Shown here piece by piece: positions 37,433 to 62,685 of a stretch of 64,000 nucleotides of DNA. Within the stretch, counting starts at the first letter, position 1; each line of letters starts with the position of its first letter. The notes below the pieces were generated by a model. That model was not told where the DNA came from. It ran no database searches and saw only the letters and a list, made by a program, of their open reading frames with translations. The translations under genes were made by a program, and so were the position numbers. The DNA comes from Sacculina carcini (Eukaryota; Arthropoda; Thecostraca; Sacculinidae): positions 5,982,501 to 6,046,500 of the forward strand of contig OU696575.1 of assembly GCA_916048095.2 (NCBI GenBank). Reading direction: 5' to 3'.

Positions 37433-37437
37433 GACTA

Positions 37438-42106: not shown

Positions 42107-42222
42107 TGTTAGTCCAATTTCGGAATGACAATATTCAATAAGTCAGTATTTACACCTCCAGATTGTCTTTAACTGAAAGGGAAATTTCTAACACTGACCT
42201 TCACATCCTGTCGGCTGCGCCA

Positions 42223-42350
42223 TGTAATAAACACACACAAGAGACAACGAGCACCAACTGTGTATTCAACGCCCTGTCCATCCTGGTTACATAATCCCAC
42301 GCTAGGGGGCACTACAAGTATGGACTAAGACACAGGACCATATTACCACA
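42223..42350 (-). repeat. LTR element 2, 5' LTR
   Basis: 128 bp, partner of 37438-37565. The primer-binding site abuts its inner edge. Confidence 0.95.
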
Positions 42351-44872: not shown

Positions 44873-44884
44873 AGCTAACCGGCC
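44873..44884 (+). other. Primer-binding site matching the 5' end of tRNA-Ile
   Basis: AGCTAACCGGCC directly follows the LTR. Its reverse complement GGCCGGTTAGCT is the first 12 bases of a common animal tRNA-Ile(AAU), as I recall it. It has no resemblance to a tRNA 3' end (no TGG start). Confidence 0.7.
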
Positions 44885-44894
44885 CTTACGAAAA

Positions 44895-45600
44895 ATGGAG
44901 TCTTCATGTGGTTTCGACGCTCGCGTGATACCAGAATTTGATGGTCAGAGTGACATTGTGGAATGGTGGACTCGCACGGAGATGATGTGTCAGCTCAAAG
45001 GCGTCGATGTGATGAGCGTAGTGCCACTACGTCTCTCAAAAGGCGCGTTTGTTGTGTGGTCCCAACTGCCGGATGAACTTCGCCGTTGTGCGAAAGGGAC
45101 TCGCAGCGCTTTGTTCTCGGCGTTTGGAGTGGACAGATTCCGTGCATACGCCCTGTTCACCAGTCGTCGTCTGCAAGAAGGTGAGTCGCCTGACGTATAT
45201 TTAGCAGATTTGAAAAAACTCGCTGTTTCATTCGGTGGCGTATCCGATAATCTGCTGATATGTGCATTTGTAAATGGCCTACCCGATCACGTGGCGACCA
45301 GTATTCGTGCAAGCACAGTGTCAGAGTCTCTGTCGTTGAGTGATATTACGAGCAGAACTCGCATGGTGTTACAAACTGCCGGAAACTGCCGCATGGTGCC
45401 CATCAAACTGTCTAGCCGCCAATGCCGGGTCGCTTTCACCTCGAAAATGCTACATTTGCAATCAGAATGGTCATTTGAGTAGAGAGTGCCCCAAAAGGAA
45501 ATATCGGATACGATGTTATAATTGCTCCAAATTGGGTCACATGGCGAAGGACTGTCAGGGAAACGAGGAAGGAGAGGGCTCGTCAGCGCCAGCACCCTCT
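44895..45600 (+). CDS. LTR element 1 Gag region
   Basis: It begins MESSCGFDARVIPEFDGQSD just after the primer-binding site. The capsid-like part resembles the Gag of elements 3 and 4 (FDGxxDxxEWxxRxE, then RRLQEGESPDVYLADL). Two zinc knuckles (CYICNQNGHLSREC, CYNCSKLGHMAKDC) end the region. Confidence 0.85.
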
Positions 45601-48479
45601 CCTCAGTGAGCAATGAGGCGCTTCCTTCAGTCACTGTGTTTATTGATCAACGTGAGTCTTATGTGCTTGTTGATACCGATTGTTCTCGCTGTATTGTGTG
45701 GAGCGGTGTTTGTAAAACATGGACACCAGTAACGACTCATGTGAATACTCTGGGTGGCATGAGCTTTGACTGTTCGGGTGTTGGTGAATGTTGTGTGAGT
45801 GTCGAGGAACAGTCAGTTGTGGTGAAGGCCCTTGTTGTGCAGCACAAGCCGATGGGATATGATGCGATTTTGGGAATGAACGCCATATCAGCGCTGGGGG
45901 GTGTTTGTGTAAGTGCTGACGGTAGGGTGCGTTTTCAAGTGAGTGCCAAGGCCGCATACTGTGCTGCGGCTGGTGATATTGTTGAGTCAAAACCTGGGCA
46001 TGAGGCACGGTTTGATGCAGTTAAAAACATGTGGACTTGCAAGTGGAAGTGGCTTGACGACCACGAGCCTCATCGTTTGACAAACGAAACTGCACAATAT
46101 CATGTGAGGCAACACGCCAAGGAGGCATTTGACAGAGAGATAAATGAGTGGATCAGCAACAAATGGTTGACTCCCTATGATGAGAGTGTACATGGGCCTG
46201 CTCGCTGTTTAATTCCTCTGATGGCAGTGACCCAAAAGAACAAGAACAAAGTGAGACCGGTCCTTGATTTCCGAGAATTTAATAAACACATTGACACTCG
46301 TTCTGCAGATGCTGACGTATGCAATGAGAAGCTGAGGGAATGGCGGATGAAGGGAGACAATGTGTTTATCATGGACCTCAAGAAAGCCTACCTGCACATA
46401 TCAGTGGACAGTTCGTTGTGGCCTTTCCAGACGGTGAAGTTCAATGGTGTGCTGTACTGCTTGACCAGGCTTGGATTCGGGTTGAGTGAGGCGCCCATGA
46501 TCATGCATACGGTGGTTGACTCGGTGATGGCACAAAACGACCAGATAAGGCGTGGTACATCGGCATATGTTGACGATGTCCTCATTGATGGAAACATTGT
46601 GTCACCCGAAGCAGTGAAGAAGCACTTTGCCAAGTACGGTCTTGAATCGAAGGAGATTCAAAAGCTCTCTGACGGAACACGTGTGCTCGGTTTACACGTG
46701 TTTTCATCAGAGTCTGGCAAGTTGATGTGGAAAAGGGACAATGCTGTGGGTGAGTGTCCGCAACAGCTCACGAGACGAGTCGTGTTTTCTTTGTGCAGTA
46801 CTTTGGTGTCGCATTATCCTGTCGGTGGCTGGTTGCGAGTTGCCGCTTCGTACATCAAGCGACTTGCATCCGAAGCGACAAACAGCTGGGACGAACCGAT
46901 TTGTGACTCAGCAATCAATAGTCTTGTGAACGAGGTGATGTCGAAACTGCAGCATAGCGATCCCGTGAGAGGCGTGTGGAAGATCGATGATGATTTGGCG
47001 AATGTATGGGTGGACGCTAGCAACATTGCCATTGGTGCGTTGGTTGAGGTGAATGGCGAGACAGTGGAAGATGCTTGCTGGTTGAGAAGGGACAGCCACC
47101 ACATAAACCTCAGTGAGCTAGAGGCCGTGATAAAGGGGCTTGGCCTGGCGATCAAGCTCAAATTTCGAAAAATTCGGGTTTTCACAGATTCGTCCACGGT
47201 GCATTTATGGCTCAGAGGACTTCTAACGGAAAAAGAACGTCTCAGGACAGCTGCCTGTAGTGAGTTGTTGATCAGGCGCCGACTAGAGATCATTGGTGGA
47301 TTGTTGGACGAGTACAATTTGACTGTTGAAGTAATGAAGGTGGCGTCTGAGAGGAATAAAGCAGATTGCCTGACTCGTGTGCCTGGTCACTGGTTGAAAC
47401 AGGACAAATCAGTGTGTGCCGCAGGTGCTGAACCGACTGACGTGCGTCCTCGCATCCGGCAGATTCACCTCGACGCCGGACATCCGGGCATCCACCGAAC
47501 GCGGTACTTTTGCCGGAGGAAAAAGCTTTACGTGAGCAAGCGGGAAGTCGCAGATGTTGTGAGGTCGTGTGACATCTGTAATTCGATTTGTCCGGCCTCA
47601 GTGAAATGGAGACACGGGAATCTGAGCGTGAATCAAAACTGGCACCGACTGGCAGCAGATTTTGTGCATGTGCGTGATTTGTTGTATGTGTCTGTCATCG
47701 ATTGTGGTCCTTCGAGGTTTTCTCTCTGGCGCAAGGTTCGCACTCGCAGCAGCGATGAAGTGGCGGACATTTTCGATGACATTTTTAGTGAGCGTGGACC
47801 CCCAAATGAGATACTTCTGGACAACGACACATCTTTTCGTGGACAGGTTTTTGTGCGGGCGATGGAGCGTTGGGGTGTGAACATTCGATATCGGTGTGCT
47901 TTTCGCCCAGAAGGAAACGGCATAGCGGAGAGGTCGCATCGGACAGTGAAGACCATTGTTGCGAGGAAACAGTGCAGTGTGAGAGAGGCTGTGATGCTGC
48001 ACAATTTGACGCCAAGCGATGACGCCGGTCGCAGACCTGTTGATTGTGTGTATCGATACAGAGTGCGAATGCGTGATGAACTCCCGCGACAGCGCAGCAC
48101 ATCTGTTCGTGGCTGCGATTATGAGGTCGGCGATCCTGTCTGGGTGAGGCAGCGCGGAGATCGGTGTGATGCTGTCGGTCGCAGGGGTACCGTCACAAGT
48201 GTCGTGTCAGACCTCGTTGTCGCCGTCGATGGCATCAACAGGCACGTGGGTGATGTCAGACCACGGGCGGAGACGGAGAACGGTGGCGGTACGAACTCAT
48301 TGGTCGAGGCGAGCGGTGACGTGGCGGACGACGGCGAGCCTGCCGTCATGGTGTACGGTGAGAGGACTGCCGGGACTGATCCGGCGAGTAGCGGTCAGCA
48401 GCAGACGCGACCACAGCGACAGAGTCAGCGTCCGGCGCGGTTCAATGATTATGTTGTGTATAATTCTAATCGGGCATAG
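45600..48479 (+). CDS. LTR element 1 Pol region
   Basis: One long frame covers protease (SYVLVDTDCSR), reverse transcriptase (KVRPVLDFRE, FIMDLKKAYLH, YVDDVLIDG), RNase H (VWVDASNIAIGA, LSELEAVIKGL, FTDSSTVHLWL, NKADCLTRVP) and integrase (DAGHPGIHRT, CDICNS, VIDCGPSRFSLWR, LLDNDTSF, NGIAERSHRTVK). A basic, glycine-rich C-terminal domain has VGDPVWVRQRGD. Integrase D, D and E residues are all visible. Confidence 0.9.
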   Translation, partial: SSVSNEALPSVTVFIDQRESYVLVDTDCSRCIVWSGVCKTWTPVTTHVNTLGGMSFDCSGVGECCVSVEEQSVVVKALVVQHKPMGYDAILGMNAISALGGVCVSADGRVRFQVSAKAAYCAAAGDIVESKPGHEARFDAVKNMWTCKWKWLDDHEPHRLTNETAQYHVRQHAKEAFDREINEWISNKWLTPYDESVHGPARCLIPLMAVTQKNKNKVRPVLDFREFNKHIDTRSADADVCNEKLREWRMKGDNVFIMDLKKAYLHISVDSSLWPFQTVKFNGVLYCLTRLGFGLSEAPMIMHTVVDSVMAQNDQIRRGTSAYVDDVLIDGNIVSPEAVKKHFAKYGLESKEIQKLSDGTRVLGLHVFSSESGKLMWKRDNAVGECPQQLTRRVVFSLCSTLVSHYPVGGWLRVAASYIKRLASEATNSWDEPICDSAINSLVNEVMSKLQHSDPVRGVWKIDDDLANVWVDASNIAIGALVEVNGETVEDACWLRRDSHHINLSELEAVIKGLGLAIKLKFRKIRVFTDSSTVHLWLRGLLTEKERLRTAACSELLIRRRLEIIGGLLDEYNLTVEVMKVASERNKADCLTRVPGHWLKQDKSVCAAGAEPTDVRPRIRQIHLDAGHPGIHRTRYFCRRKKLYVSKREVADVVRSCDICNSICPASVKWRHGNLSVNQNWHRLAADFVHVRDLLYVSVIDCGPSRFSLWRKVRTRSSDEVADIFDDIFSERGPPNEILLDNDTSFRGQVFVRAMERWGVNIRYRCAFRPEGNGIAERSHRTVKTIVARKQCSVREAVMLHNLTPSDDAGRRPVDCVYRYRVRMRDELPRQRSTSVRGCDYEVGDPVWVRQRGDRCDAVGRRGTVTSVVSDLVVAVDGINRHVGDVRPRAETENGGGTNSLVEASGDVADDGEPAVMVYGERTAGTDPASSGQQQTRPQRQSQRPARFNDYVVYNSNRA

Positions 48480-48502
48480 TGATTCTTAGAATCAGGGGGA
48501 TA

Positions 48503-48879
48503 TGTATTGTGTTTATTGTGTATTGCATGGTATTGTATTTTGTACTATATATAATTGTGTGTGCGTGCATGTGTATTTGTGTGCGTACGTGGGAGTGTGA
48601 TTTTGTGTACGTTGTTGTATGCGCGCGCGGAGGTAGCTGCGTTGCATAAGCGCGAGCTATGAGTGCATGCATGCGCGGGTGGTATCCGCCCGGAGTCAAC
48701 GGTCGCTCGTGCATGTTGGGCAGTGCGTTACTGGTGAAGTGAGAGTGTGGTGTTTTGTGCAGTGGCTTAGAGTGTTGTTCGGTGGAGAGAGTAGTATTTA
48801 GTGCATTGTGTTGCGGTGTGATCGTGTGGAATTGTGCTTTCTTGTTCTTTTCTATTTTTCGTGCTTACATTCAAATACA
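48503..48879 (+). repeat. LTR element 1, 3' LTR
   Basis: 377 bp, nearly identical partner of 44496-44872. Confidence 0.95.
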
Positions 48880-48884
48880 AAAAC

Positions 48885-49479
48885 ATATCAGCTTTTCACT
48901 GCGAATCGCAACAGTAGAAGAGGAGGGGGAGTAGCCGTTTACATTGACAATAAAGCAATTGTAGATCAAAATTCAGTCGAGGCTACACAAACAAATGGTG
49001 TGTTAGAAGCACTAACATTGAAAGCGAACTTCAATCACCATATTTTTATCATAACCTGTGTATACAGGTCTCCAGCGTCGAGCATGAGGAGCTTCGTAGA
49101 TTTTGTGTGTGAAACTCTCGAAAAAAGTGACAAAAATGATTGGTTTGTAGTAGGAGACTTCAACGTAGACTTCGCAAAGAAGGATGAACAGGAAACAAAT
49201 AGCCTAATTAACGCTTTTTTTGGTCACGGTTTTGTTCCGTTAATTACATCACCAACAAGAATAACATCGACATCACAAACGACTATTGATAATATATTCA
49301 CCAACGTTACCAAAAAAAAGATTATGTCAGGAACAGTCACTTTTGACATCAGTGACCATCTACCCATATATGCACTAGTTGGTGGACCAGGCCATTCTAG
49401 GCAAAGAGAAAGTGTATTGATGAGGACATTTTCAAGGAAGTCTGAACAAGAATTCTTAGAACTATTGGGTAAAACAAAC
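48885..49479 (+). CDS. LINE A ORF2, part 2: rest of endonuclease
   Basis: It continues in the same frame as part 1. Motifs: RRGGGVAVYID, VVGDFNVDF (Asp/Asn pair), TTIDNIFT and FDISDHLPI (the catalytic SDH). It ends at FLELLGKTN, where LINE B has inserted. All endonuclease active-site residues appear to be present. Confidence 0.92.
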
Positions 49480-49703
49480 AACAACAACAAAACATCAACA
49501 ACAAAACATGTATTTCATATAGCGCTCTAATTATCATAGGCGCGAGGAACGGCTAGCTATAAAATGTATACAATGTGGAATAAACAAAACAGTATCGCAT
49601 AAACAAAAATATAAGCAGCGATATACTATGAAGGAACAATTGAAAATAACTATGGATGAAAAAAAAAATCAAAAAAAATCTAACAGTTATTCACACAATA
49701 TAA

Positions 49704-50872
49704 TTATTCATCAGAGGAGACACCGAGAAGATATGTACAAAGAGAAGTGGAAAAAGACCTGTAAGAGAGAGAAGATCGAATTTTAAGAGGAAGTTCATTG
49801 AACAAACGAGGTCCAGAGAAAAAAAGAGATTTCGAAGACCAGGTGGAGTCGTTGAGAGCACGGGGACAGAAGAGACTACGTGATAGTGAGCGGCCCGGAC
49901 GATCAGAAACAGTAAGAAGAGAACGGAGATAAGGAGGAGCAGAGTCGGAGTGGATGATCTTGAAGATGATGCAGCAAACCTTGTGATGGATTCGCTGCCG
50001 TGCAGGAAGCCATCCAAGTTGGCGGATGAATTTCGAGGTGGGAGTTCTCGGTGGAAGAAGAAAAACAAAACGGCAAGATTGGTTTATAATTTTCTGAAGC
50101 GAGCGTATATTTTTACAAGAAACATGAAGATAAAGAGAGTTACAATAGTCTAACCTGGAGAAAATTAAGGACTGTACAAGTGTGATTGCTGTAGCATTAT
50201 CAAGGAATCGACGGATAGGATAAAGTTGGCGGAGAATAAGACGACAGGAGCGAGTCACACGTGATATGTTAATTGAGAAAGAGAGATTGTGATCAAAATG
50301 TACACCAAGATCACGAACACACTGAGATAGGGGTAATGGAATTATTGGAGGAGATAATTTGGGAGGATGAAACACAATATATTCAGACTTGGAATGGTTC
50401 AAAAGTAGATGGCGTGATGAAGCCCAGGATGTAATATTATTCAAAACCGCAGAAATGCAATTTTCTGAAAATTTTGAGATAGGAAAGTACAGCTGTAGAT
50501 CATCCGCATAAATGTGGTAAGAAATAGGAAAACGATGAAGAATTGGACAGAGAGAAGACATATACAAATTGAACAATAACGGACCCAATATTGATCCCTG
50601 AGGTACGCCACTGGAAAGTTTTACAGAACTCGAAAAAGTGGAATTAGAGCGAACAGAATAAGAACGATTAGAAAAGTATGAATTCATCAATGAAAGAGCC
50701 GTAGAAGAGAGTCCAATAGCGGCAAGGTCGTCACACAAAATTGCATGATCGACGAGGTCAAATGCCGAAGAGAGATCCAGCAGAACAAGCAGAACAGAGT
50801 CACCAGAGGCAAAATGATTGAAGATATCGTTCAATAGGTGCAAAAGGAGAGATTCAGTGGAACGATTAGATA
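49704..50872 (-). CDS. LINE B reverse transcriptase, C-terminal part
   Basis: It continues the frame of 55660-56159 after the interruption: SNRSTESLLLHLLNDIF, VLLDLSSAFDLVDH (catalytic Asp), GVPQGSILGPLLFNLY, HIYADDLQLYF (catalytic YADD) and LGVHFDHNLSF. The C-terminal region has SRLDYCNSLY, LGWLPARQRIHHK and SGPRLFNELP, standard for L2/CR1 LINEs. No internal stop. Confidence 0.93.
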
Positions 50873-51072
50873 TGTAGGAACGCCTACAGTAACGAATTAT
50901 TAACACACACGAGCTGCAACGAACAACTGGTGTATTTACAGAAGCACGATGTGTTGTTGTCTTTACACCTTCACATTTGGCGCACACAAGGTCTAACAAT
51001 AAAACAGAAACAATATAACAATTGCATGATATTTAACTATTAAATAAATAGAAATAACAGACGGCGGCCACA
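50873..51072 (-). repeat. CsRn1-like element, 3' LTR
   Basis: 200 bp, TGTAGGAACG...GCGGCCACA on the plus strand. Confidence 0.95.
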
Positions 51073-51097
51073 GCCCCCTTCAGGTGCAAGGCACCGA

Positions 51098-54000
51098 TTA
51101 CCGATAGCGTCTGGGGACGCGAACCAGTCGGGCGCGCCGTGACCACACAATTCTGTCTGGACACTGTGTGAGAGATGGTTCAGCTGGAATGGGAGGTGTC
51201 TGAGTCGTTGAAGTGGCTGCTGGTGTTCCGTTCGGAAGAGCCGATGCCGAAGCAGGAGAGGGCGCGTCACTGTTCTCCGAGAATGCTGGTTTCAGCCGGT
51301 CAAGGGCGACGGTGTCTATTCTTCCGTTGATGTCCAGGACAAAAGCTTTGTCACCCCGCTTGATTACAGCATATGGACCACGGTAAGGTGGTGTCAAAGG
51401 CGGGCGTACAGCATCGACTCGGACAAATACGTGTGTCGCTGTTTTCAGCGGCTGCGAGACAAATGGGCGTTCGGCGTCAGAACTCCGATGCCAGGATGTT
51501 GGTGTCGGTCGCAGCTTGGAGATGGCAGTTGCCAGTTGTCGAGCAGTCTCACAAGCCGGCGCTGGAGTCGTTTGAGAGAAGAACTGGCCCGGCAGACGCA
51601 TTTTCTCTCCCAAGACAAGCTCTGCTGAAGACGAGTTGATGTCTGGTTTGTAAGAAGCTCGCATGCCCATCAGCACAACAGGTAAAGCGATGAGCCAGTT
51701 TGTGGACCTCTCCAGTGCAGCGGTGAGAGACGCCTTCAATTGACGATGTATCCGCTCCACCAATCCGTTCTGCTGAGGAGAATACGCGCATGTTGTTTTG
51801 TGAGCCACTCCCAGGATGGACCAGAACTCTGACCACAGATCAGATACGAACTGTCGTCCGCGATCTGATGTGATGCACAAGCACATGCCGAAACGTGAAG
51901 TCCATTCCAGCAGTGCACGTGCGCACGAAGCAGCCGATGCGTCCGTCATTGGCACAGCATCCGGGTAGCGTGTGTACCTGTCGACGATAGTAAACAGGTA
52001 ATGGTACCCGTTTGCTTCAGGAAGCGGACCGACGATGTCAACGTGCAGGGCCTCAAATCGGCCGGACGGTGTGGCAGGACGACGCAGAGCCGAGCGCTGA
52101 TGACGACCGACCTTGCACTGCTGACAAGGGACACAGTTCTTCGCCCAGGTTGAAACCTTTGATCCGATGCGTTTGAAAACAAAGCGCTCGGAAATCAAGC
52201 GACGTGTTGCTCGTGCACTAGGATGGTGCATGTTGTGAAATGAACAGAAGATATCGTGCTGGAGCGACTCAGGTACAAGAGGACGATCAACACCATTAGA
52301 CACGTCAACTAGCAGGCCACCCGGGACACCCTCGACCTCTCGACGTTCAACACAAAGCGACGGGGAGGCGGCGAGTTCAGAAACGTCCGCGGCACCTTGC
52401 TGCGCGATGGCGATCTTTCTGATGTCCAGACCTTGCTGAGCGACGACATCAAGCTGTGAGACCTGGTGTTCCGTGACGAAGACCGGTGGTCGACTCAGGT
52501 AATCAGACACCGCGTTGTCTCGGCCGCTAATGTGTCTGATGTCGGTGGAGAATTCACTGATGAAAGCCAGTTGACGCTGTACACGTGCCGAACGCTCGGA
52601 CATGCTCGTGAACGCGTGCGTCAACGGCTTGTGATCCGTCCACAGCTGCAGTTCTGGACGACCTTCAAGCAAATGCCTGAAACGCTTCAAGACGCTGAAA
52701 ATGGCAAACAGCTCCTTGTCTCCTGTGCACCATCTCAGCTGGGCACCGGCCAACACACGAGAATGGTATGCCAGAGGCACCCATCTGCCTTCCTGCAGCT
52801 GCAAAATGACCGCGCCGACGGCGTGGTCCGATGCGTCCGCGACGACCTTTGTGATGGCGTCGTGTCGAGGGTACGCAAGCTGGGATACGGCGGCCAGCGC
52901 AGATTTGGATTTCTCGAAGGCTGCCGTTTGGCGCGGACCCCAGGAAAACCCGCGCTTCGCGTTCGCCGTGTCATGAAGTGGCTGCAGAATCGACGCCAGA
53001 TTAGGGATGAACCGATGAAAGAAGTTCACCATGCCGAGGTATTTTCTGCAATCCGCTGGATCCCGTGGCGGCGGCATGGACAGCAAATCCTCCACTTTGT
53101 CGGGAAGAGGTGCAATGCCACGGGCGGACACCTCCATGCCAACGAAGCGGACCTTGCTGACGCCAAAAACACACTTCTCCGGTTTGACAGCCAACCCAGC
53201 TTTGCTCAGACGGCGAAAAAGCTCCTGCAAGTCCCTGCGGTGAGTTGCAGCATCGGGCGAGTAGATGAGAATGTCGTCTAGGTAACAGTACACCCGCGGC
53301 ATTCCCCTGAGAACCGTGTCCATCAACCTCTGAAACGTCTGTGCCGCGTTGCAGAGACCGAAGGGCATGCGGGTGTACTGAAACAGCCCGAAGGGAGTGG
53401 TAATGGCTGTCTTATCTTGGTCGTCTTTATGCACAGGAACCTGAGCAAATGCTCTTGGCAGATCGACTGTGCTGAAAATGGTGGCACCTGAGAGACGATC
53501 AGCGAAGGTCTGCATGTGCGGCACAGGATATCTGTCTGGGACAGTGATGGCGTTGAGGCGTTCGTAACACCCAACCATTCTGAACGAAGCGCCACCATCC
53601 TTCTGGACCAGGTGGATTGGGCTCGACCATGAAGAAGATGATGGTACCAGGATGCCACGTTCCACTAGCTCATCGAGCTCCCGCTTGGCGGCCGCTAGCT
53701 TGGCCGGCATGAGACGTCGTGGTCTAGCAAACACCGGGTTGCCGCGAGTGATGATGCGGTGTTTCACACCGGGTACGGATACCACAGGAAACCCTGTTGG
53801 CGGAACTGTGAGTTTCAAAAACTCGCTCGACCGACGAACATCAGCAAACCCTTCGCCGTCCTGCTCTCGTCGCTGGACGGTGCTGACATGAACTATGACT
53901 GGATACCGGTCGGTGTGTTGAGGTGAACTGCTGGTTGACAAAAAGGTGGCGCTGTCGATCAGCCGATGTTTTGTCATATCGACCATGAGGCCGAATTCCC

Positions 54001-54349
54001 GCAAAAAGTCAGCACCGAGGATTGGAGTCGGAACTGCCGCCACAAAAAAACCAAACGAGTACACTCGGCCAAGACCTAAGTCTACATCCACACGGTGGTT
54101 TACCTTGTAGACAGATATGGAGGTACCATTGGCGGCGCGGAGTACCGGCTGACTCAATGCGGCTGAACATCCCGAGGGGGCCGGCAGTAACGACACCTCC
54201 GACCCGCTGTCCACCAGATATCTACGGCCTGTGAGATCCGTAACGAATAAAAGACGGCACTTCTTACGGCAGTCGTGGGCCGTCATTACCGCCGGCTGCC
54301 GCTGTCGTTTCCCGGCACGTCTGCGTGGAAAGTGCACGATCCCAGGCAA
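51098..54349 (-). CDS. CsRn1-like element Pol
   Basis: A 1083-codon frame. The first part holds the aspartic protease (YLVDSGSEVSLLPAP, ~40). Next comes the reverse transcriptase (FSTVDLPRAFAQVPV, FQYTRMPFGLCNAAQ, YCYLDDILIYSPD at ~355). RNase H follows (VVADASDHAVGAV, LWTDHKPLTHAF). The integrase has an H-C finger (HHPSARAT, CVPCQQCK) and core residues in HVDIVGPLP, ITSDRGRQFVSDLW and QQNGLVERIHRQLK. These are typical of the CsRn1/Kabuki clade. The C-terminal tail is proline-rich. Confidence 0.93.
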   Translation of the reverse strand: MPGIVHFPRRRAGKRQRQPAVMTAHDCRKKCRLLFVTDLTGRRYLVDSGSEVSLLPAPSGCSAALSQPVLRAANGTSISVYKVNHRVDVDLGLGRVYSFGFFVAAVPTPILGADFLREFGLMVDMTKHRLIDSATFLSTSSSPQHTDRYPVIVHVSTVQRREQDGEGFADVRRSSEFLKLTVPPTGFPVVSVPGVKHRIITRGNPVFARPRRLMPAKLAAAKRELDELVERGILVPSSSSWSSPIHLVQKDGGASFRMVGCYERLNAITVPDRYPVPHMQTFADRLSGATIFSTVDLPRAFAQVPVHKDDQDKTAITTPFGLFQYTRMPFGLCNAAQTFQRLMDTVLRGMPRVYCYLDDILIYSPDAATHRRDLQELFRRLSKAGLAVKPEKCVFGVSKVRFVGMEVSARGIAPLPDKVEDLLSMPPPRDPADCRKYLGMVNFFHRFIPNLASILQPLHDTANAKRGFSWGPRQTAAFEKSKSALAAVSQLAYPRHDAITKVVADASDHAVGAVILQLQEGRWVPLAYHSRVLAGAQLRWCTGDKELFAIFSVLKRFRHLLEGRPELQLWTDHKPLTHAFTSMSERSARVQRQLAFISEFSTDIRHISGRDNAVSDYLSRPPVFVTEHQVSQLDVVAQQGLDIRKIAIAQQGAADVSELAASPSLCVERREVEGVPGGLLVDVSNGVDRPLVPESLQHDIFCSFHNMHHPSARATRRLISERFVFKRIGSKVSTWAKNCVPCQQCKVGRHQRSALRRPATPSGRFEALHVDIVGPLPEANGYHYLFTIVDRYTRYPDAVPMTDASAASCARALLEWTSRFGMCLCITSDRGRQFVSDLWSEFWSILGVAHKTTCAYSPQQNGLVERIHRQLKASLTAALERSTNWLIALPVVLMGMRASYKPDINSSSAELVLGEKMRLPGQFFSQTTPAPACETARQLATAISKLRPTPTSWHRSSDAERPFVSQPLKTATHVFVRVDAVRPPLTPPYRGPYAVIKRGDKAFVLDINGRIDTVALDRLKPAFSENSDAPSPASASALPNGTPAATSTTQTPPIPAEPSLTQCPDRIVWSRRARLVRVPRRYR

Positions 54350-55101
54350 CGACGCGCAGCGGGTCCATATTTACGGTGTAGACGGCACCAGCGATTAACG
54401 AAGTCGTTCACAGATGGCTGGGCTGCTTGCGGTTGTCTCTGACGACTGGGACGCTGACGAGGACCTGTGGCAGCGGCAACAAGATGGTTCTCCGGCTCAT
54501 CAGTCGCAGGAGCAGCAGCTTCACTGACCACCTGGGCCGTGAACACTGCAGAAGACGCAGCTGGCTGGTGAAAGGCGTCAGCGCGAAGAGCCGCTTCACG
54601 CAAGCTCATCGTGACCAGCCACTCGCGACAAAGAAGCCGGAGATCATTTGGCACTCGGATGAGAAACATCTCGCGAATTATTTCGTGATCTGTATCATTC
54701 GGATACAAAGCCGCGAGGTCTCCGAAAAGCTCCGACGGTTTCCTCGAGCCAAGCTGCTGCGGCAGACTCAAGAGGCGCTGTAAGCGTTCCGCCGGAGTGA
54801 GCTGGAGACGCTGCTTTAGCCTTTCTTTCAGCTGATCGTAGCAGTCAGTGGCGAGGGGCACCTGAGTGGCCAGATCCATCACCATGCGAAAATGCGACGG
54901 AGGCAATTTGGCCAATAATTTTCGGAACATGGTGGTTTGACACGTAAGACCACCGTCGGCCATGAGGTTGTCGCACATGGCGAGCCACACATCCACATTC
55001 TCGCAGTCAAACACAGGTAATTCCACCCTTACCGCGTGTATGCTACCGGTGTTAGACATCGTCAACGAAACAAAAACGATGAAAAAACACAGAACAATCA
55101 A
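54286..55101 (-). CDS. CsRn1-like element Gag
   Basis: A 271-codon frame that overlaps the start of Pol by about 60 bases in another frame. The core reads SIHAVRVELPVFDCENVDVW, LPPSHFRMVMDLA, ERLQRLLSLPQQLG and FLIRVPNDLRLL, as in CsRn1-clade Gag. A C-terminal CRLHRKYGPAARRC stretch is the CHCC-like finger known from that clade instead of a CCHC knuckle. Confidence 0.9.
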   Translation of the reverse strand: MIVLCFFIVFVSLTMSNTGSIHAVRVELPVFDCENVDVWLAMCDNLMADGGLTCQTTMFRKLLAKLPPSHFRMVMDLATQVPLATDCYDQLKERLKQRLQLTPAERLQRLLSLPQQLGSRKPSELFGDLAALYPNDTDHEIIREMFLIRVPNDLRLLCREWLVTMSLREAALRADAFHQPAASSAVFTAQVVSEAAAPATDEPENHLVAAATGPRQRPSRQRQPQAAQPSVNDFVNRWCRLHRKYGPAARRCLGSCTFHADVPGNDSGSRR

Positions 55102-55182
55102 ATTGTTATGAAAAAAAATATATATCTACATGCAGATGATAGATATATCTATATAAAAAAAATTGGAGTCGGGGTCACCACT

Positions 55183-55382
55183 TGTAGGAACGCCTACAGT
55201 AACGAATTATTAACACACACGAGCTGCAACGAACAACTGGTGTATTTACAGAAGCACGATGTGTTGTTGTCTTTACACCTTCACATTTGGCGCACACAAG
55301 GTCTAACAATAAAACAGAAACAATATAACAATTGCATGATATTTAACTATTAAATAAATAGAAATAACAGACGGCGGCCACA
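55183..55382 (-). repeat. CsRn1-like element, 5' LTR
   Basis: 200 bp partner of 50873-51072, followed on the minus strand by a two-base spacer and the tRNA-Trp-type site. Confidence 0.95.
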
Positions 55383-55659
55383 GGGTGGAATTACCTGTGT
55401 TTGACTGCGAAAATGCGACGGAGGCAATTTGGCCAATAATTTTCGGAACATGGTGGTTTGACACGTAAGACCACCGTCGGCCATGAGGTTGTCGCACATG
55501 GCGAGCCACACATCCACATTCTCGCAGTCAAACACAGGTAATTCCACCCTTACCGCGTGTATGCTACCGGTGTTAGACATCGTCAACGAAACAGAAACAA
55601 TATAACAATTGCATGATATTTAACTATTAAATAAATAGAAATAACAGACGGCGGCCACA
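55383..55659 (-). repeat. Extra gag/LTR segment with a 27-bp inverted repeat
   Basis: On the minus strand the order is: first ~70 bases of an LTR (55590-55659), gag leader and about 180 bases of gag, then a 27-base inverted piece of gag (55383-55409, matching 55523-55549 in reverse), then the full 5' LTR. Junctions show short microhomology. I infer template switching and snap-back priming during reverse transcription of the integrated cDNA. Confidence 0.85.
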
Positions 55660-56159
55660 GATACAAAGCCAGATTGAAAAGGATCGAGAACGGTGTTTAT
55701 CAAAGGTGATAATTGCTCGTGTATGGCCGACTCCAGCAGCTTGGCAGTGAAGCTCAGAACGGAAACAGGGCGGTAATTACCAGGACAGTTAGGGTCAAGA
55801 GTGGGTTTTTTCAGTATTGGTGTGACAATAGCAGATTTATCAGCAAAAAATAAACCATGTAGAAAAGAAGAATTGATGAGATGGGAAAAAATGGGGGAAA
55901 GGAGGTGAATGGAGTCAGACAAAGCAGAGAAATTAATCGGATCGAGAGGACAACGAGAAATTTTAAGTTTTTTAATAAGGCGAGAAGTATGAGCTACCGA
56001 GATATGGGAGAAACTAGACAGAGTGGAGGATGAAGTAGTATGAGTGAGAACTGTAGTGGTTGTAGGAAGTAGGGCACGAACCGAATTTAGTTTTTGAGGG
56101 AAGAATTGAGCAAAAGTAGAAGCCGAAATAGGATTGGGAGAGGAGCTGCCAACTGTCAA
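55660..56159 (-). CDS. LINE B reverse transcriptase, N-terminal part
   Basis: The frame reads SSSPNPISASTFAQFF, then the RT start: KISRCPLDPINFSAL, IVTPILKKPTLDPN, NYRPVSVLSFTAKLLE and VLDPFQSGFVS. One copy of the GATA duplication joins it in frame to NRSTESLLLH at 50868. The natural start is lost by 5' truncation; the first Met seen is not a real start. Confidence 0.9.
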
Positions 56160-56168
56160 CTGTCAAAC

Positions 56169-57397
56169 TGGACATGCACTCAATATGAGGACGTTGATCA
56201 AGCCTACAGTGATTTTCTACACCAGTTCATCACGCTCGTTGAACATTGTTTCCCTGTTCGCAGAATCAGCAGATACAATAGAATGGAAACTAGGCCATGG
56301 ATGACAAGTGCACTGAAAACATCATGTAAATATAAAAACAAACTCCATAAGAAATTCCTAGAGACTCGATTAGAAAAAGATAATATGAGATATAAGGAAT
56401 ATCGAAACATGTTGACTTCCCACATACGTCAGGCGAAACAAAATTTCATCTCAAATGCGCTCCACCAAGCAAAAAATGACACAAAAAGCACATGGAAAAT
56501 TCTGAACAAAGCGTTAGGACGAGAAAAAACTGACACTCATTCATGTGTGTTTCATCAGAACGGCCATGATTACAAATCGGGCGATGATATCTCGAACGCA
56601 TTTAATAACTTCTTTGTTGAAGCAGCCAATGATGTGACAAAAAATATTCCAAAAGCCACGGCAGATCTCAAGACAATAAATATGAAAAGAGTTGAGTCAA
56701 CAATTTTCCTGAGTCCTGTCACCCAAGCTGAGGTCTACAACGTCATCATGTCATGTGAGAGCAAGAAATCCTGTGATGATGACTTTATCGACATGAGATT
56801 GCTAAAAACAGCGGTCAGGTTCATTTCAACACCTCTTCAGTATGTTTGCAACCTGTCGTTCACACATGGAGTTTTCCCTGCTCAAATGAAAACAGCCAAA
56901 GTCATACCAATTTTCAAAAAAGGCAAAAGAACAAATTTCACAAATTATAGACCAATTTCTCTTCTTCCTCAATTTTCAAAAATTCTAGAAAAATTGTTTG
57001 ATTCAAGATTGAGCTCGTTTATTTCCAAAAACAAAATCATAAATTCTGGTCAGTATGGGTTTCAGTCGAAAAAGTCTGTGAATGACGCAATCGCCGATAC
57101 CATAGAATTCATTTCCAACTCCTTGGACAAGAACAATTTCACAATAGGAATATTTGTAGATTTGAGAAAAGCGTTTGACACAGTGAATCATCGAATACTT
57201 TTAAATAAGTTGGAAGTGTACGGCATACGAGGCAAGGCTAAAGATTGGGCTGAGAGTTATCTGAATGAACGTCACCAAATGGTCGATTATCGTGGGGCGA
57301 TATCGGACAAAAAAGTCATCACATGTGGAGTCCCACAGGGGTCGGTCCTTGGCCCTAAACTTGTTCTCCTGTATATTAACGACTTACTCAGCGTATC
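56169..57397 (+). CDS. LINE A ORF2, part 3: linker and reverse transcriptase
   Basis: It resumes directly with WTCTQYEDVDQAY. The linker contains PWMTSALKTSCKYKNKL and WKILNKALG. The reverse transcriptase follows: VIPIFKKGKR, NYRPISLLPQFSKILEK, GIFVDLRKAFDTVNH (first catalytic Asp) and GVPQGSVLGPKL. It ends at YINDLLSVS just before the expected FADD box, where LTR element 3 begins. No stops are seen. Confidence 0.92.
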
Positions 57398-57564
57398 TGT
57401 GGAGTTTGTATGCGTGTTTGTGTGTGTGTGTGTGTGTCTGTTTGTCTTTGTGTGTGCGTCAAAGTGTATGTACGAGCAAGTGTGATTTAGTGTGTGCTAT
57501 CCTTGTTCGTTGTCCAGTGCTTGAAGCGGCGTCACGTGACTCGTACACTTTAAGGTTATATAAG

Positions 57565-58133
57565 TGTAGTTCCGCATTCCCCGCAACCGTCATTGTTGCT
57601 TCGTTCTCCGTCATGTCTCGGTAGACAACCAGAAATTAGGAAACGTGTAATTACAGTCTCGAATAAACTCGGAATGACTGAACGAATATAAATACTTAGA
57701 TAATAACAAAAGATAACAGTAACCCGTGAGTGAACAAACGACTCAATAAACTACCGGGTAACAATAACCCGTGAGTGAACGAACCACTCAATAAACCACC
57801 GCTACCGCCGTAAATCCCATTTCAACACAACGCAACACCGCCGCACGCTTCACACACACTGCCCAACATTCACCCTCCAGTTCACGCGTTGAGAATCGCC
57901 CGATGCAGGCGATCGTTTGTACATTCATCCAATAATCAACCAATCAGAAAACAATACGCCAATACGTCATCAACGCCTGCAAGTTCACACACAAGCATAC
58001 ATGCACGCTCGCACACACGCACACGCAGGCTACCCGCACGCGCAGGCTATAAGCCACGCCTCAACACACTGCACCGCAAACAGTCAGCTGATACAAATGC
58101 CTTAATGCGCAAGCATCTCCACTTCACACTACA
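57565..58133 (-). repeat. LTR element 4, 3' LTR
   Basis: 569 bp, TGTAGTTCC...CACACTACA on the plus strand. Confidence 0.95.
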
Positions 58134-61100
58134 CCCCACCCTGATCTCCAAGATCACAACATAAACACCGGGGAGGTGGTCGCCGTACCCGCGCCCCTCT
58201 CCGAACGCCTTCGGCTGGCACGGTCGTCGGTTCCCGTCTATCAGCATCAACTTCTGGACGTGCTGCATCATCATGAACTCCAACAGCGTCGACTCGCTCA
58301 TGTACTGACGATGAAGCTCGTCCAGCCACATCTGCATTGGAAGTGGAGTGGGACACGGGACCACCGACCCACAGCGGAGAGTCGTTGGTTGATGACATAT
58401 CGTCGGGTGGCTCGGCTTCCACACCATGCTCGTTCCTGCGTCGAAGATCTCGGACATGACGCGGCACACCGTCAACCTCGACCACCTGCTCAGACACAAC
58501 ACCACTTACCACTCCTTGTGCCGACCGCTCGGTGCATCTGGTCCCACGCTGACGAACCCATACTGCGTCACCAGTCGTGAATCTAGACCGCCCACTACCG
58601 GAAATCTCTCCTTCTCTTGGCTGGTTAACCCGAGGTCTCGCGTAGTCTCGTACTCTATAGTTGTAGACACAATTGGCTGGTGCGCTGTCTCCAGTCTCTC
58701 CGTCGCGAGGCGTGACGTTATATAAATGAACAGCCTCAGTGATGCTGCAACCCTTTCTAGCAGCAATGACTTTCACGGTCCTATGATTGCGCTCAACAAT
58801 CGCATTCCCACTTGCAGCATACGCCGCTCTGAAACGTAGCTTGATGCTCCACTGTGCTGCAAGCGCCGCAAACGACCGACTTCTGAAAACTGTATCGTTG
58901 TCGCAAAGTAGTTCAGCTGGTGCACCTCTCTCAAAAAATATCCTCTCCAAGTGCTGTATGACCTGATAACTGTCGGCCGCACGCAGTTGTCTCCACAAGC
59001 TAAACCGCGAAGGGCCACAGTCAACGACAGTCAGGTACGACTGATTGTCGTAATGAGTAACGTCAATGGCCAGGCGACTCCAGATATCAGCAACGCTCAG
59101 CGCGCCGTGTCGCCATTTGACCGGTGCCGGATCGATAGCGTTGCATACATCACAACGACGAACCACCTCGCGTACATCCGATCGCTTCACAGGTCTAGCG
59201 AGGTCACGTTTGGCAAAAAATAATGTTCGACGTATTCCTGGATGCCCTGCTCGCTCATGAATGTTTACAATATCCTCGGCGACTGAGCCACGGACTGCTG
59301 GAGCCGCAGCTGCCGCGCCTACAGCTGTTGATTCGCTGCCAAGCCAACTGGTTGGCACACGCGTGAGAGCATCTGCCAAATTTTCGGCGGATCGAACCAG
59401 CCGCACCTTCACTCGTAATCCGAGTTCATCCACCATCTGTTTGATGAGGCACACTCTCCGTCGTATCAGCATTTCGCCATGCGCTTTTGTCCGGAGCCTG
59501 GCACGACCGCTCAGTGCATCACCAATCCAATGGTGAACAGTTGCAGAATCCGTGCGGAGGTCTATCACCTTCATACCCCACGAAACGGCCATGTTGATAC
59601 CTCTGATGGCAGCGTCCAGCTCGGCCATGTTGATATGAGTGACTTCATCTCGACGAAGCCAGCATGCGTCCTCGATTACTCCCGAGTCCTTAGTCTCCAA
59701 CACCACTCCGAGAGCAATCGCGCTGGCATCAGTCCACACAGTTACCTCTTCTCCGGTCACCCGCCATACTCCCCGCGCTGGATCTTCATTCTTGAGTCTG
59801 TTAATGACATTTGAAATTTTGTTCTCCACAGACCGGTCATCAACGACATCATCCCATCCTTGAGTCACAGAATTCACACACCGCTTCATCCAGGAGGCAG
59901 CAGGTCTTAACCATCCAACCACCGGTAGATGAGCAACCAGACGGCCGCACCACGAAAACACCGACCTGCGAGTCATTGGCCCATTAATTGGTGGTATAGG
60001 ATTATCCCTGCTCCACGCCAATCCGTTCTGCTGTCGCCGAACGCTCAGACCCAGTACACGACATGAGGGGTCGGCCCGCAATGCGGTTTTACAGGTGAGC
60101 CCATATCTGGAGAGATGCTTGCTCACTTCATCTGCGCTCAGCACAGACTCATCGACAAGAATGTCGTCAATGTACGATGAAGCTGCTCTGTCGACATTTG
60201 GATCTTGCTTACACACGAAGTTGACGATCTCTTTCATTATGATAGGAGCCGCACTTAGCCCGAACCCCAACCGAGTCAGACAATATCGCTTGTTAGATAT
60301 TATTACTGTTTGGTAACACCAGAGTGCAGGCTCGACTTCAACCTGGAGATAGGCGCGCGTCAGATCCAACAAGGCTATACGGTCGCCCCGCCTCCTCCAC
60401 TCTCTGAGTTTGTGATGGCAGACGTCAGCATCCGCCGTATGTATTTCCACGAATTGATTTAATTGGCGAAAGTCCATCACCGGCCTGACTTTGGATTTAT
60501 TCTTTTGGCTGACTGCCATGAGTGGGATGAGTCCTCTTACTGGCCCATGAGCGCGTTCATCGTATTCAACGAGCCATCCGGCGTCAATCCAAGATTGTAG
60601 CTCCGACCGGTACTCATCGCGGGCATGTGGAGCAATCGCATATTCAGCCGTCCGGTTCGTCAGCACACTCGGACGTTGCGACCACTTCCACTTCACTCTC
60701 CACGAGTTTTTATTTGCATCGAAATATGCCACGAAGTCTTTGCCCTCAAGCTCACATCCACCACCCACACCTTTCCCATTCGCTGCTGCCGCAGCACACA
60801 GTTCCCGCTGAGCAAGTGCATCTTCTACTCCCCACGTCAGTTTCCGCCTCGAGTCCAACATCATGCCACCCATTGCCACAATACCGTCAAGTCCGAGAAT
60901 GAAATCAAAACCGGCTGGCCGGTGCTTCACCACCAGCACGCTGAGCTCGAATGCCTTGCCTCCGTCCACCGCGATCTGCGCTGGCCAACTACCCTGACAT
61001 ATCATCTGAGCTCCGCTAATAGTCAACAACGACTCACCATGAAATTCCGCCAGCCCTCTGCACAACGACTCCGATATTATACTCCTAGTACATCCAGTGT

Positions 61101-61152
61101 CAACTAACGCAAGGCACTGAACGTCGTTGACTAACACACGAGTGGTGACCAT
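58129..61152 (-). CDS. LTR element 4 Pol
   Basis: A 1007-codon frame, 36 bases after the Gag frame ends. Protease: CLALVDTGCTRSIIS (~15). RT: KVRPVMDFRQLNQFV, ALLDLTRAYLQVEV, RLGFGLSAAPI, YIDDILVDES (~327). RNase H: VWTDASAIALGVVLE, NMAELDAAIRG, RTDSATVHHW, ADALTRVP. Integrase: HERAGHPGIRRT, CDVCNA, AIDVTHYDN, LLCDNDTVFRS, NAIVERNHRTVK. The C-terminal domain is GDAVWVRQRGTR. It is the same branch as element 1. The last codons run a few bases into the 3' LTR. Confidence 0.93.
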   Translation of the reverse strand: MVTTRVLVNDVQCLALVDTGCTRSIISESLCRGLAEFHGESLLTISGAQMICQGSWPAQIAVDGGKAFELSVLVVKHRPAGFDFILGLDGIVAMGGMMLDSRRKLTWGVEDALAQRELCAAAAANGKGVGGGCELEGKDFVAYFDANKNSWRVKWKWSQRPSVLTNRTAEYAIAPHARDEYRSELQSWIDAGWLVEYDERAHGPVRGLIPLMAVSQKNKSKVRPVMDFRQLNQFVEIHTADADVCHHKLREWRRRGDRIALLDLTRAYLQVEVEPALWCYQTVIISNKRYCLTRLGFGLSAAPIIMKEIVNFVCKQDPNVDRAASSYIDDILVDESVLSADEVSKHLSRYGLTCKTALRADPSCRVLGLSVRRQQNGLAWSRDNPIPPINGPMTRRSVFSWCGRLVAHLPVVGWLRPAASWMKRCVNSVTQGWDDVVDDRSVENKISNVINRLKNEDPARGVWRVTGEEVTVWTDASAIALGVVLETKDSGVIEDACWLRRDEVTHINMAELDAAIRGINMAVSWGMKVIDLRTDSATVHHWIGDALSGRARLRTKAHGEMLIRRRVCLIKQMVDELGLRVKVRLVRSAENLADALTRVPTSWLGSESTAVGAAAAAPAVRGSVAEDIVNIHERAGHPGIRRTLFFAKRDLARPVKRSDVREVVRRCDVCNAIDPAPVKWRHGALSVADIWSRLAIDVTHYDNQSYLTVVDCGPSRFSLWRQLRAADSYQVIQHLERIFFERGAPAELLCDNDTVFRSRSFAALAAQWSIKLRFRAAYAASGNAIVERNHRTVKVIAARKGCSITEAVHLYNVTPRDGETGDSAPANCVYNYRVRDYARPRVNQPREGEISGSGRSRFTTGDAVWVRQRGTRCTERSAQGVVSGVVSEQVVEVDGVPRHVRDLRRRNEHGVEAEPPDDMSSTNDSPLWVGGPVSHSTSNADVAGRASSSVHERVDAVGVHDDAARPEVDADRREPTTVPAEGVRRGARVRRPPPRCLCCDLGDQGGV

Positions 61153-61187
61153 CGGCGCCGTTTCGGTAGAGGAGAAGAGACTGGCAC

Positions 61188-61970
61188 CTACGTCTCCCCT
61201 CCTTGGCCGTTTTCCGGACAGCGTGAACAGATATGCCCGATTTCACCACACTTGAAACACGTGGGCCCAGTTCTCCCTTTTCCAGGGCCATTTTTTCGGC
61301 GAGAGCAATAACGCGCGGAATGCCCGGCTTGGTTACACAAGAAACACTTGAAGGGTTTTATCTGCTGGTCGTAATCACGCGTTGTCGAACGAGCAGCCAG
61401 TCCAGTGTTAACGGTGTGGGTCGCTTCTGACAAAATCACCCTTGTCCTGTCCACGACTTCGGTCAGCGTCATAGCGTCGAGCTTGGCGTTCGCCCTGAGG
61501 ACATGTCGCACAGTCTGTGGGATCCCTGAGACGAAAGCACATTTTATTGAGACTGGGTCGGTTATATTGCACCTGGCTCCCAGTCTGCGCAGGTCGGACA
61601 GCAACACATCAACACACTCACCTTCGCTCAATCTTCGCCCCACAAAAGCGTCGTACGCTCCGAAAGTATCCATGCCAAACGCGGTCTGAAGAGCTTGCTC
61701 CACTTTTTCAAGGTCCAGCTGTTCCACATCGGGGAGGCAGTCCACGACAGCATATGCATCACCTGTAACTCTCATCCCAACAACTTGGGCCACATCGCGC
61801 ACGCCTCGGAGTCGACACATTTTCCGAACTTTGCTGAGCCATTCTGTGGGGTCCTTTTTGCCGTCATACTCCGGCACCAGCCTCAGGTCGAAAGCCACAT
61901 TACTTGCCGCCGAAATAGCTTGTAGTTCCGCATTCCCCGCAACCGTCATTGTTGCTTCGTTCTCCGTCAT
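61188..61970 (-). CDS. LTR element 4 Gag, starting inside the LTR
   Basis: A 260-codon frame begins MTENEATMTVAGNAELQ within the 5' LTR, reads through the primer-binding site (AISAA) and continues FDLRLVPEYDGKKDPTEWL. The only methionines before the conserved core are at 61970 and 61949, both inside the LTR. Later motifs are RRLSEGECVDVLLSDL and two zinc knuckles (CFLCNQAGHSARYC, CFKCGEIGHICSRC). Translation must begin upstream of the primer-binding site. Confidence 0.88.
   Translation of the reverse strand: MTENEATMTVAGNAELQAISAASNVAFDLRLVPEYDGKKDPTEWLSKVRKMCRLRGVRDVAQVVGMRVTGDAYAVVDCLPDVEQLDLEKVEQALQTAFGMDTFGAYDAFVGRRLSEGECVDVLLSDLRRLGARCNITDPVSIKCAFVSGIPQTVRHVLRANAKLDAMTLTEVVDRTRVILSEATHTVNTGLAARSTTRDYDQQIKPFKCFLCNQAGHSARYCSRRKNGPGKGRTGPTCFKCGEIGHICSRCPENGQGGET
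61909..61920 (-). other. Primer-binding site of element 4 matching the 5' end of tRNA-Phe
   Basis: The plus strand reads GCCGAAATAGCT directly against the LTR, which is the start of animal tRNA-Phe itself. The genomic (minus) sense is therefore its complement over exactly 12 bases. The same 12 bases occur in element 3. Confidence 0.7.
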
Positions 61971-62489
61971 GTCTCGGTAGACAACCAGAAATTAGGAAAC
62001 GTGTAATTACAGTCTCGAATAAACTCGGAATGACTGAACGAATATAAATACTTAGATAATAACAAAAGATAACAGTAACCCGTGAGTGAACAAACGACTC
62101 AATAAACTACCGGGTAACAATAACCCGTGAGTGAACGAACCACTCAATAAACCACCGCTACCGCCGTAAATCCCATTTCAACACAACGCAACACCGCCGC
62201 ACGCTTCACACACACTGCCCAACATTCACCCTCCAGTTCACGCGTTGAGAATCGCCCGATGCAGGCGATCGTTTGTACATTCATCCAATAATCAACCAAT
62301 CAGAAAACAATACGCCAATACGTCATCAACGCCTGCAAGTTCACACACAAGCATACATGCACGCTCGCACACACGCACACGCAGGCTACCCGCACGCGCA
62401 GGCTATAAGCCACGCCTCAACACACTGCACCGCAAACAGTCAGCTGATACAAATGCCTTAATGCGCAAGCATCTCCACTTCACACTACA
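61921..62489 (-). repeat. LTR element 4, 5' LTR
   Basis: 569 bp partner of 57565-58133. It contains the first ~16 codons of Gag at its inner end. Confidence 0.95.
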
Positions 62490-62673
62490 ATAAGCGCTGT
62501 GTTCCATTGTGAAGGAGGAGTGAGTGATCAGTTGCGGCCGTGAGAACTGAGCGTGCGCTTGAGTGAGTTGTGGTGCGAGATTGGTGGATTATTGTGTGTG
62601 GTGTGTGTGCGTATATTCCAGTGAACCTGTGCGCGAGTGTGCACACAATATACAGGTGTTTTTTTTTATTACA

Positions 62674-62685
62674 AGCTATTTCGGC
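62674..62685 (+). other. Primer-binding site of element 3 matching the 5' end of tRNA-Phe
   Basis: AGCTATTTCGGC directly follows the LTR end TTATTACA. Its reverse complement GCCGAAATAGCT is the first 12 bases of animal tRNA-Phe as I recall it. Confidence 0.7.

Follow-up and report, generated by a model that had tools for sequence, protein, structure and literature searches.

In a clade of LTR retrotransposons from Sacculina carcini, the 12 bases that directly follow the 5' LTR are probably the primer-binding site, at which the 5' end of a host tRNA would initiate minus-strand DNA. For some families this tRNA would be tRNA-Ile(AAU); for a larger number it is probably tRNA-Phe. The site lies flush with the LTR, it matches bases 1-12 of tRNA-Ile exactly, it is retained in thousands of copies, and at least two changes between an Ile type and a Phe type have taken place. 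From this anatomy we infer the further step, that a complementary site signifies a 12-nt 5' tRNA fragment acting as primer. Retroviruses and most LTR elements are described as being primed by the 3' end of a tRNA (PMC7472051).

The window, the whole stretch of 64,000 nucleotides that was analysed, holds three elements with such sites, which we call e1, e3 and e4. The 5' LTR of e1 (44496-44872, + strand, 377 bp, TGT..ACA) is followed immediately, after its terminal ..TACA, by the site AGCTAACCGGCC at 44873-44884 (+). A gag reading frame at 44895-45482 (+) starts at the first ATG behind the site, and a pol reading frame at 45522-48479 (+) has matches to RVT_1, DUF7047, RVT_3, H2C2 and rve, those to rve and H2C2 being below the Pfam cut-off. 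The 3' LTR (48503-48879, +) is directly preceded by a purine-rich tract and is 99.5% identical to the 5' LTR, and the element is flanked by the target duplication AAAAC.

The Phe-type site AGCTATTTCGGC occurs twice, again directly behind an LTR ending in ..TACA. In e3, on the minus strand, it occupies 61909-61920, next to a 5' LTR of 569 bp (61921-62489) that is 100% identical to its 3' partner at 57565-58133; the target duplication is CTTAT. A gag-like frame with a zinc knuckle (61188-61970, -) is listed as beginning within the LTR and reading through the site. The pol frame (58129-61152, -) includes DUF7047, rve, H2C2, RVT_1, RVT_3 and a protease-like start, of which RVT_1 and the protease-like start fall below the cut-off. 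The third element, e4, is interrupted within its 5' LTR by e3, so that the LTR is divided into a first part at 57398-57564 (+, aligned extent) and a second at 62490-62673 (+), the latter reaching the site at 62674-62685 (+). Its 3' LTR (L253) lies outside the window, and alignment with it, at 99.5% over 184 bp, places the end of the repeat at 62673. The LTR edges of all three elements are thus defined by a second LTR, and in all three the 12-mer is flush with the edge, so that reading of the sequence and alignment of the LTR pairs bear out the positions given for these sites in the original prediction. A further, decayed Phe-type site, CGCTATCTCGGC at 11137-11148 (+), was missed in that prediction; it has two mismatches to the Phe type, is preceded by ACA and has a gag-like remnant behind it.

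The Ile-type site had been proposed to be the complement of tRNA-Ile bases 1-12, and all ten tRNA-Ile(AAU) genes recovered from the host (five of them run through ARAGORN) start with exactly these bases. When the site was compared in every register with the 11 host tRNA species recovered, a match of 12/12 was found at base 1 of tRNA-Ile only, the runner-up being base 1 of tRNA-Lys with 10/12; no better tRNA region was found among these species. Furthermore, because of a G5-U68 pair in the acceptor stem, the two strands of tRNA-Ile can be told apart, and the site, with ACCGGCC, corresponds to the 5' strand, whereas the 3' strand reads ACTGGCC. The Phe-type site is one which we take, from the animal tRNA-Phe sequence, to be the complement of tRNA-Phe bases 1-12, and host tRNA-Phe genes would then be expected to start GCCGAAATAGCT. 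The expectation that the host tRNA genes begin with the 12 bases therefore holds for Ile, whilst no matching Phe gene was found in the searchable assembly: a full-length tRNA-Phe query matched in part at two places, searches with four patterns returned nothing, and no tRNA gene starting GCCGAAATAGCTCAG, or combining a standard T arm with a TTTCGGC end, was found there. Two rearranged short Phe-type elements contain pieces of an animal-type tRNA-Phe, covering bases 38-72 in one and 38-67 in the other.

Across the genome, with the same pattern read backwards as control, the Ile-type 12-mer has 402 copies against 22 and the Phe-type 2021 against 5. Preceded by the CA of an LTR end, the counts are 377 against 2 and 1913 against 0, such that 94% of Ile-type and 95% of Phe-type copies directly follow CA, where chance would give about 1/16. 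The 80 sites sampled fall into 29 LTR groups. At six of 30 Phe-type loci a second copy of the repeat was found within 3 kb with its edge no more than one base from the site, and at a seventh such locus the repeat stops 14 bases short. Target duplications, judged by eye, flank four of five short elements. In each family examined the tRNA match ends at base 12, exactly at the LTR edge, and free variation of the 12 bases among copies, which had been named as a refuting observation, is not seen.

Exchange between the two types of site is evident within the clade. A gag tree of 16 rows calls for the minimum of two changes given above, and one family, represented by L083 and L225, carries Ile and Phe sites in tandem; L221 and L230 have a second tandem site with one change. 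In a sequence set collected mostly for the Ile and Phe 12-mers, these were the only ones to recur after [TC]ACA+AGCTA (12 Ile, 30 Phe), six others occurring once each. Against the proposed priming, only two tRNAs are used although the Lys and Thr(CGT) tRNAs likewise have TAGCT at bases 8-12: a genome pattern search for Lys- and Thr-type sites gave three matches against one for the control, with one of Thr type and none of Lys type.

The elements e1 and e3 have the features of LTR retrotransposons, namely two LTRs, TG..CA ends, a target duplication and a purine tract before the 3' LTR, together with gag and a PR-RT-RNH-IN pol. DUF7047 (PF23088) lies between RT and RNase H and scores above the cut-off in both pols, to which the profile test applies; the loci of the other families mostly stop upstream of this domain. 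A gag or pol match lies within 1.5 kb of the site at 23 of 36 loci and at none of the other 13, and every copy in which coding sequence could be detected falls into a single pol clade. Thus the thousands of copies do not amount to thousands of independent events. Relatives of this pol occur in Amphibalanus, Trichuris and Petrolisthes, and among the 120 matches listed identity to the e3 pol is 45-58%. These elements have the same pol domains as e1 and e3 and are known here as proteins; a search of these 120 pols for codons corresponding to the site gave no useful result. A protein search of viral_contigs and genome_contigs gave no relatives outside the host genome. Exact-pattern matches there (13 in viral_contigs, and at least 116 in genome_contigs, where about 479 would be expected for a 15-mer) look like chance; 93 of the 129 loci were compared with the gag and pol of the window, and none matched.

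Membership of the established groups was also considered. A copia-type assignment does not fit, as rve is downstream of RVT_1 and RVT_3 in e1 and e3. The ordinary 3'-end register is present in the same window, in two gypsy-like elements with TGG-type sites: e2, whose site (55163-55180, -) is 2 bases behind the LTR (LTRs 50873-51073 and 55183-55383), and e0, whose site (42204-42221, -) is directly behind it (LTRs 37437-37565 and 42222-42350). Conventional priming has in common with the arrangement described here a host tRNA and a site adjacent to the LTR, but e1, e3 and e4, unlike e2 and e0, have no TGG-type site at the edge in the sequence behind their LTRs, and are not conventional 3'-end primed elements. 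The gypsy-type RNase H families RT_RNaseH and RT_RNaseH_2 match e2 and e0 only, and the pols of e1 and e3 have only short, weak matches to those of e2 and e0, so that Ty3/gypsy membership was rejected. The 12-bp duplexes are short, a further point against the proposed priming: they reach -23.1 and -18.7 kcal/mol, whereas the sites of e2 and e0 give -34.4 and -38.4.

It is attractive to consider how such a site would function. Pairing of tRNA bases 1-12 with it would melt the acceptor stem along with part of the D stem; cleavage of the tRNA would follow after base 12, where the duplex ends, and the new 3' end would prime into U5. The position of the cut would thereby set the LTR edge, and the site would be renewed by plus-strand copying of the tRNA fragment. 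The likeliest cutter may be the element's own RNase H. In Tf1 and Tf2, self-priming employs an 11-nt RNA, cut where the duplex ends. Here too a short RNA (12 rather than 11 nt) would be paired at the LTR edge and cut where pairing stops; the difference is that the RNA would come in trans, from a host tRNA and not from the 5' end of the element, and the tested elements carry no sense copy of the primer. More tentatively, with the balance somewhat against it, the DUF7047 pol clade of animal LTR retrotransposons at large might prime in trans as Tf1 does in cis, by annealing of 12 bases, an RNase H cut after base 12 and priming from the 12-nt stub, with swaps between two tRNAs at a fixed register, one of them recorded as tandem sites.

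The chief alternative, which we judge unlikely, resembles copia: a host nuclease would make a 5' tRNA fragment that ends at, or is trimmed to, base 12, the cut being independent of the site and of the element's RNase H. Host 5' tRNA fragments and the cleaved tRNA primer of copia are known. Furthermore, both tRNA-Phe pieces in the rearranged copies begin at base 38, beside the anticodon, as would fit a halved tRNA; such starts may alternatively reflect a stop at modified base 37. The coincidence of the end of the match with both base 12 and the LTR edge is, however, more simply explained by cleavage where the duplex ends, and we know of no common host tRNA fragment of 12 nt. Self-priming of the Tf1 type, with the element's own RNA as primer and the tRNA match incidental, is very improbable. 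The Tf1 self-primer is flush with the LTR and close to 12 nt in length, but a sense copy of the primer is absent (best 9/12 in e1, and 8/12 in e3, in the part of e4 within the window and in five short elements), and self-priming gives no reason for the site to match bases 1-12 of tRNA-Ile. Just as improbable is a role in tethering or packaging, for which alone the site would bind the tRNA 5' end, whilst a conventional 3' end primes elsewhere. In e1 a 3'-end tRNA-Ile site is indeed matched at 11/14, 66 bases behind the LTR; this match was set aside, being located in gag codons and seen in 6 of 28 Ile-type copies, each a member of the e1 family, with at most 9/14 in other Ile families and a best match of 9/14 for Phe in e3 and e4. 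Moreover the U5 edge is set by the 3' end of the primer, and it is the 5'-end site that sits at this edge. Least probable of all is an arbitrary 12-mer inherited at the LTR edge and resembling tRNA by chance, which could draw on the non-independence of copies from one clade but is opposed by two 12-mers at a single register, the exactness of the Ile match and the exchanges within the clade.

Priming in trans from a tRNA 5' end would take its place beside the few known routes of LTR priming: the tRNA 3' end, an internally cut tRNA and a self-primer. In copia and Ty5, the initiator tRNA-Met is cut internally to give a primer ending in the anticodon region, at about base 39. There, as proposed here, the primer is a 5' tRNA fragment whose 3' end was created by internal cleavage, but in the present elements the end would be at base 12, pairing would start from base 1, the tRNAs are those for Ile and Phe, and integrase lies behind RNase H. 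If the proposal is correct, a 12-nt tRNA 5' fragment and cleavage of the tRNA at the 12/13 junction are predicted, and a further register for starting reverse transcription would connect the cut-tRNA and self-primer strategies. In annotation, primer sites are sought against tRNA 3' ends; sites of the present kind would be missed by this practice, and the type may therefore be common and overlooked. Small RNAs derived from the 3' ends of tRNAs are described as targeting conventional primer sites (PMC7472051), and elements primed from the tRNA 5' end would be predicted to evade them.

Three LTR retrotransposons in the window, e1, e3 and e4, carry a 12-base site complementary to the first 12 bases of a tRNA: tRNA-Ile in e1 and probably tRNA-Phe in e3 and e4. 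Read directly from the sequence, the sites lie where the original prediction placed them (44873-44884, 61909-61920 on the minus strand, and 62674-62685) and, as it had claimed, flush with the LTR edge: all three LTRs end in ..TACA and the 12-mer starts at the very next base. The LTR pair of e1 (44496-48879, plus strand) is 99.5% alike and that of e3 (57565-62489, minus strand) is identical across 569 bp; both elements have a purine-rich tract preceding the 3' LTR and 5-bp target duplications, AAAAC in e1 and CTTAT in e3. Element e4 extends past the window, and its 3' LTR, L253, lies outside. Since L253 matches both 62490-62673 (99.5%) and sequence ending at 57564 (95.8%), e3 is nested within the 5' LTR of e4; ATAAG is present on both flanks of e3 (57398-57564 and 62490-62673). 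A decayed member of the same clade at 11050-11470 has a 10/12 Phe-type site followed by a gag-like remnant. The gag frame of e3, as listed, begins within the LTR, so that at 61909-61970 the 12-base site doubles as gag codons (..ELQAISAA..). The window also holds an inverted repeat at 27458-28007 (250-bp arms, 93% complementary, 50-base spacer) and long reading frames at 32510-34516, 49704-50999 and 56094-57485 which by eye resemble non-LTR (LINE) reverse transcriptases.

According to PMC7472051, LTR elements use a host tRNA with few exceptions, and synthesis at the primer site starts from the tRNA 3' end. A genome search with a tRNA-Ile query recovered 10 genes, and ARAGORN called tRNA-Ile(AAU) in all five of the loci on which it was run. 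All 10 carry GGCCGGTTAGCTCAG from base 1, so that the e1 site is the complement of tRNA-Ile bases 1-12, as proposed. No tRNA region fits better: when the Ile-type primer is compared at all registers with 11 host tRNA species, it matches 12/12 solely at tRNA-Ile base 1, with tRNA-Lys base 1 the runner-up at 10/12. Furthermore, tRNA-Ile, read from the gene, has a G5-U68 pair, such that its 3' acceptor strand gives ACTGGCC but the complement of its 5' strand ACCGGCC. The site carries ACCGGCC and thus mirrors the 5' strand. The Lys and Thr(CGT) tRNAs likewise have TAGCT at bases 8-12, and a genome pattern search points to hardly any use of them as primers, or none (Lys-type 0, Thr-type 1). No conventional 3'-end (TGG-type) site is present at the LTR edges of e1, e3 or e4. 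Within gag of e1, 66 bases past the end of the LTR, lies an 11/14 match to a 3'-end tRNA-Ile site; this match is found in six of 28 Ile-type copies, all of the e1 family, the others reaching at most 9/14. Two further elements of the window, e2 and e0, have a gypsy-like pol without DUF7047 and each a TGG-type site, which in e2 is separated from the LTR by 2 bases and in e0 follows it immediately; these sites match best at 10/16 and 12/18, respectively, among the 11 recovered tRNAs, their own tRNAs being outside that set.

The Phe-type primer, GCCGAAATAGCT, corresponds to what we take to be bases 1-12 of animal tRNA-Phe. The prediction that the host tRNA genes begin with these 12-mers held for tRNA-Ile (10/10), while no tRNA-Phe gene with this 5' end was found in the searchable assembly: an animal-type query turned up two partial matches, and searches with four patterns had no hit. 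Genome-wide, no tRNA gene with GCCGAAATAGCTCAG or the matching 3' end was found, against 1913 sites with CA and the complement. As the assembly is perhaps incomplete, this is not read as absence of the gene. The partial matches, bases 38-72 (94%) and 38-67 (100%), both begin at base 38, adjoining the anticodon, and lie in two loci, L049 and L050, on the reverse strand from base 1501. Since these pieces sit within rearranged short Phe-type elements, it seems that an animal-type tRNA-Phe has met such elements.

The 12-base tRNA-5'-end sites are a real and abundant feature of the genome. Over the 264-Mb assembly (43 contigs), whose tRNA genes and transposons resemble those of animals, the Ile-type 12-mer occurs 402 times (205+197) and the Phe-type 2021 times (1016+1005), against 22 and 5 for the same patterns read backwards. 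CA precedes 377 of the former (94%; control 2) and 1913 of the latter (95%; control 0), where chance would give about 6%. Among the first eight Ile-type loci, six have ACA in front, at LTR ends of five kinds, and two are tRNA genes; CA precedes 29 of the first 30 Phe-type loci and 19 of a further 20, hand-picked out of the plain 12-mer list. The 20/20 for a further Ile-type set is no test, the sites having been drawn solely from those known to follow CA. Eighty sites (52 Phe and 28 Ile, including e1, e3, e4 and L083 and excluding the two tRNA genes), 78 of them preceded by CA, were sorted by likeness of up to 200 preceding bases into 29 groups, a count made approximate by single linkage on matches of at least 40 bases; 10 are Ile only, 18 Phe only and one mixed. 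Seven of 30 Phe-type 3-kb loci, all short elements of ~1.0-1.6 kb, contain the sequence preceding the site a second time. In six of them this repeat stops either directly before the site or at its first base; in L055 it falls 14 bases short of the LTR end. Of five printed with flanks, L056, L071, L075 and L078 have by eye a 5-bp target duplication and L072 has none. For the other loci sampled, the position of the LTR edge is judged from the CA end rather than a second LTR.

The pol of e1 and e3 has RVT_1, DUF7047 (PF23088), RVT_3, H2C2 and rve domains, some under Pfam cut-offs. Its relatives are found in a barnacle (Amphibalanus), in whipworms (Trichuris), in a crab (Petrolisthes) and in many further contigs (547 matches in 7992 candidates scored; identity 45-58% among the 120 matches listed); no DNA of these outside relatives was found in viral_contigs or genome_contigs. 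In 25 aligned pols, acidic positions which we presume to belong to the active sites of RT, RNase H and integrase vary little or not at all. A search of 36 loci (30 Phe, 6 Ile) over the 1.5 kb following the site found similarity to the window elements' gag or pol in 23 and none in 13. A gag tree built from 16 of 18 prepared rows (L053 and L006 were removed, the segment taken not being gag) groups the Ile family L007 with the Phe families L054 and L069 (100/100), and places e1, L005 and L004, all Ile, together (100/99) beside three Phe families (94/97). Five of 13 forks are open and L059 and L066 have long branches; both Ile placements are on starred branches, which force at least two Ile/Phe changes.

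A family of short elements carries tandem sites. In L083 and L225 the LTR, ending ..TTTTACA, is followed by the Ile site, TGTAACA (7 bases) and the Phe site; L221 and L230 share this order, their second site being altered at one position, and in L001, L214 and L220 the Ile site and TGTAACA are present without a second site. This looks like a recorded primer switch. An Ile fragment would have primed at an imperfect position, 19 bases into the old U5, creating a new edge and 12-mer and leaving the old edge and site behind; such a scenario would agree with a rule whereby the primer end sets the LTR edge.

A mechanism can be proposed that builds on the demonstrated site, register, host tRNA-Ile match, conservation and switching. 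Bases 1-12 of the tRNA would pair with the site, the bare duplexes amounting to -23.1 and -18.7 kcal/mol, versus -34.4 (e2) and -38.4 (e0); the tRNA would be cut after base 12, the new end extended into U5, and the site renewed by plus-strand copying. The cut may be made by a host nuclease. Cleavage by the element's own RNase H at the duplex end is favoured, because in all families seen the match goes no further than base 12, and because there is a precedent in Tf1, in which the cut falls at the duplex end, on the element's own RNA. Confidence is restrained chiefly because the tRNA-Phe gene was not found. The register of tRNA bases 1-12 may be undescribed so far. If the inference holds, these elements would represent a new variant of tRNA priming.
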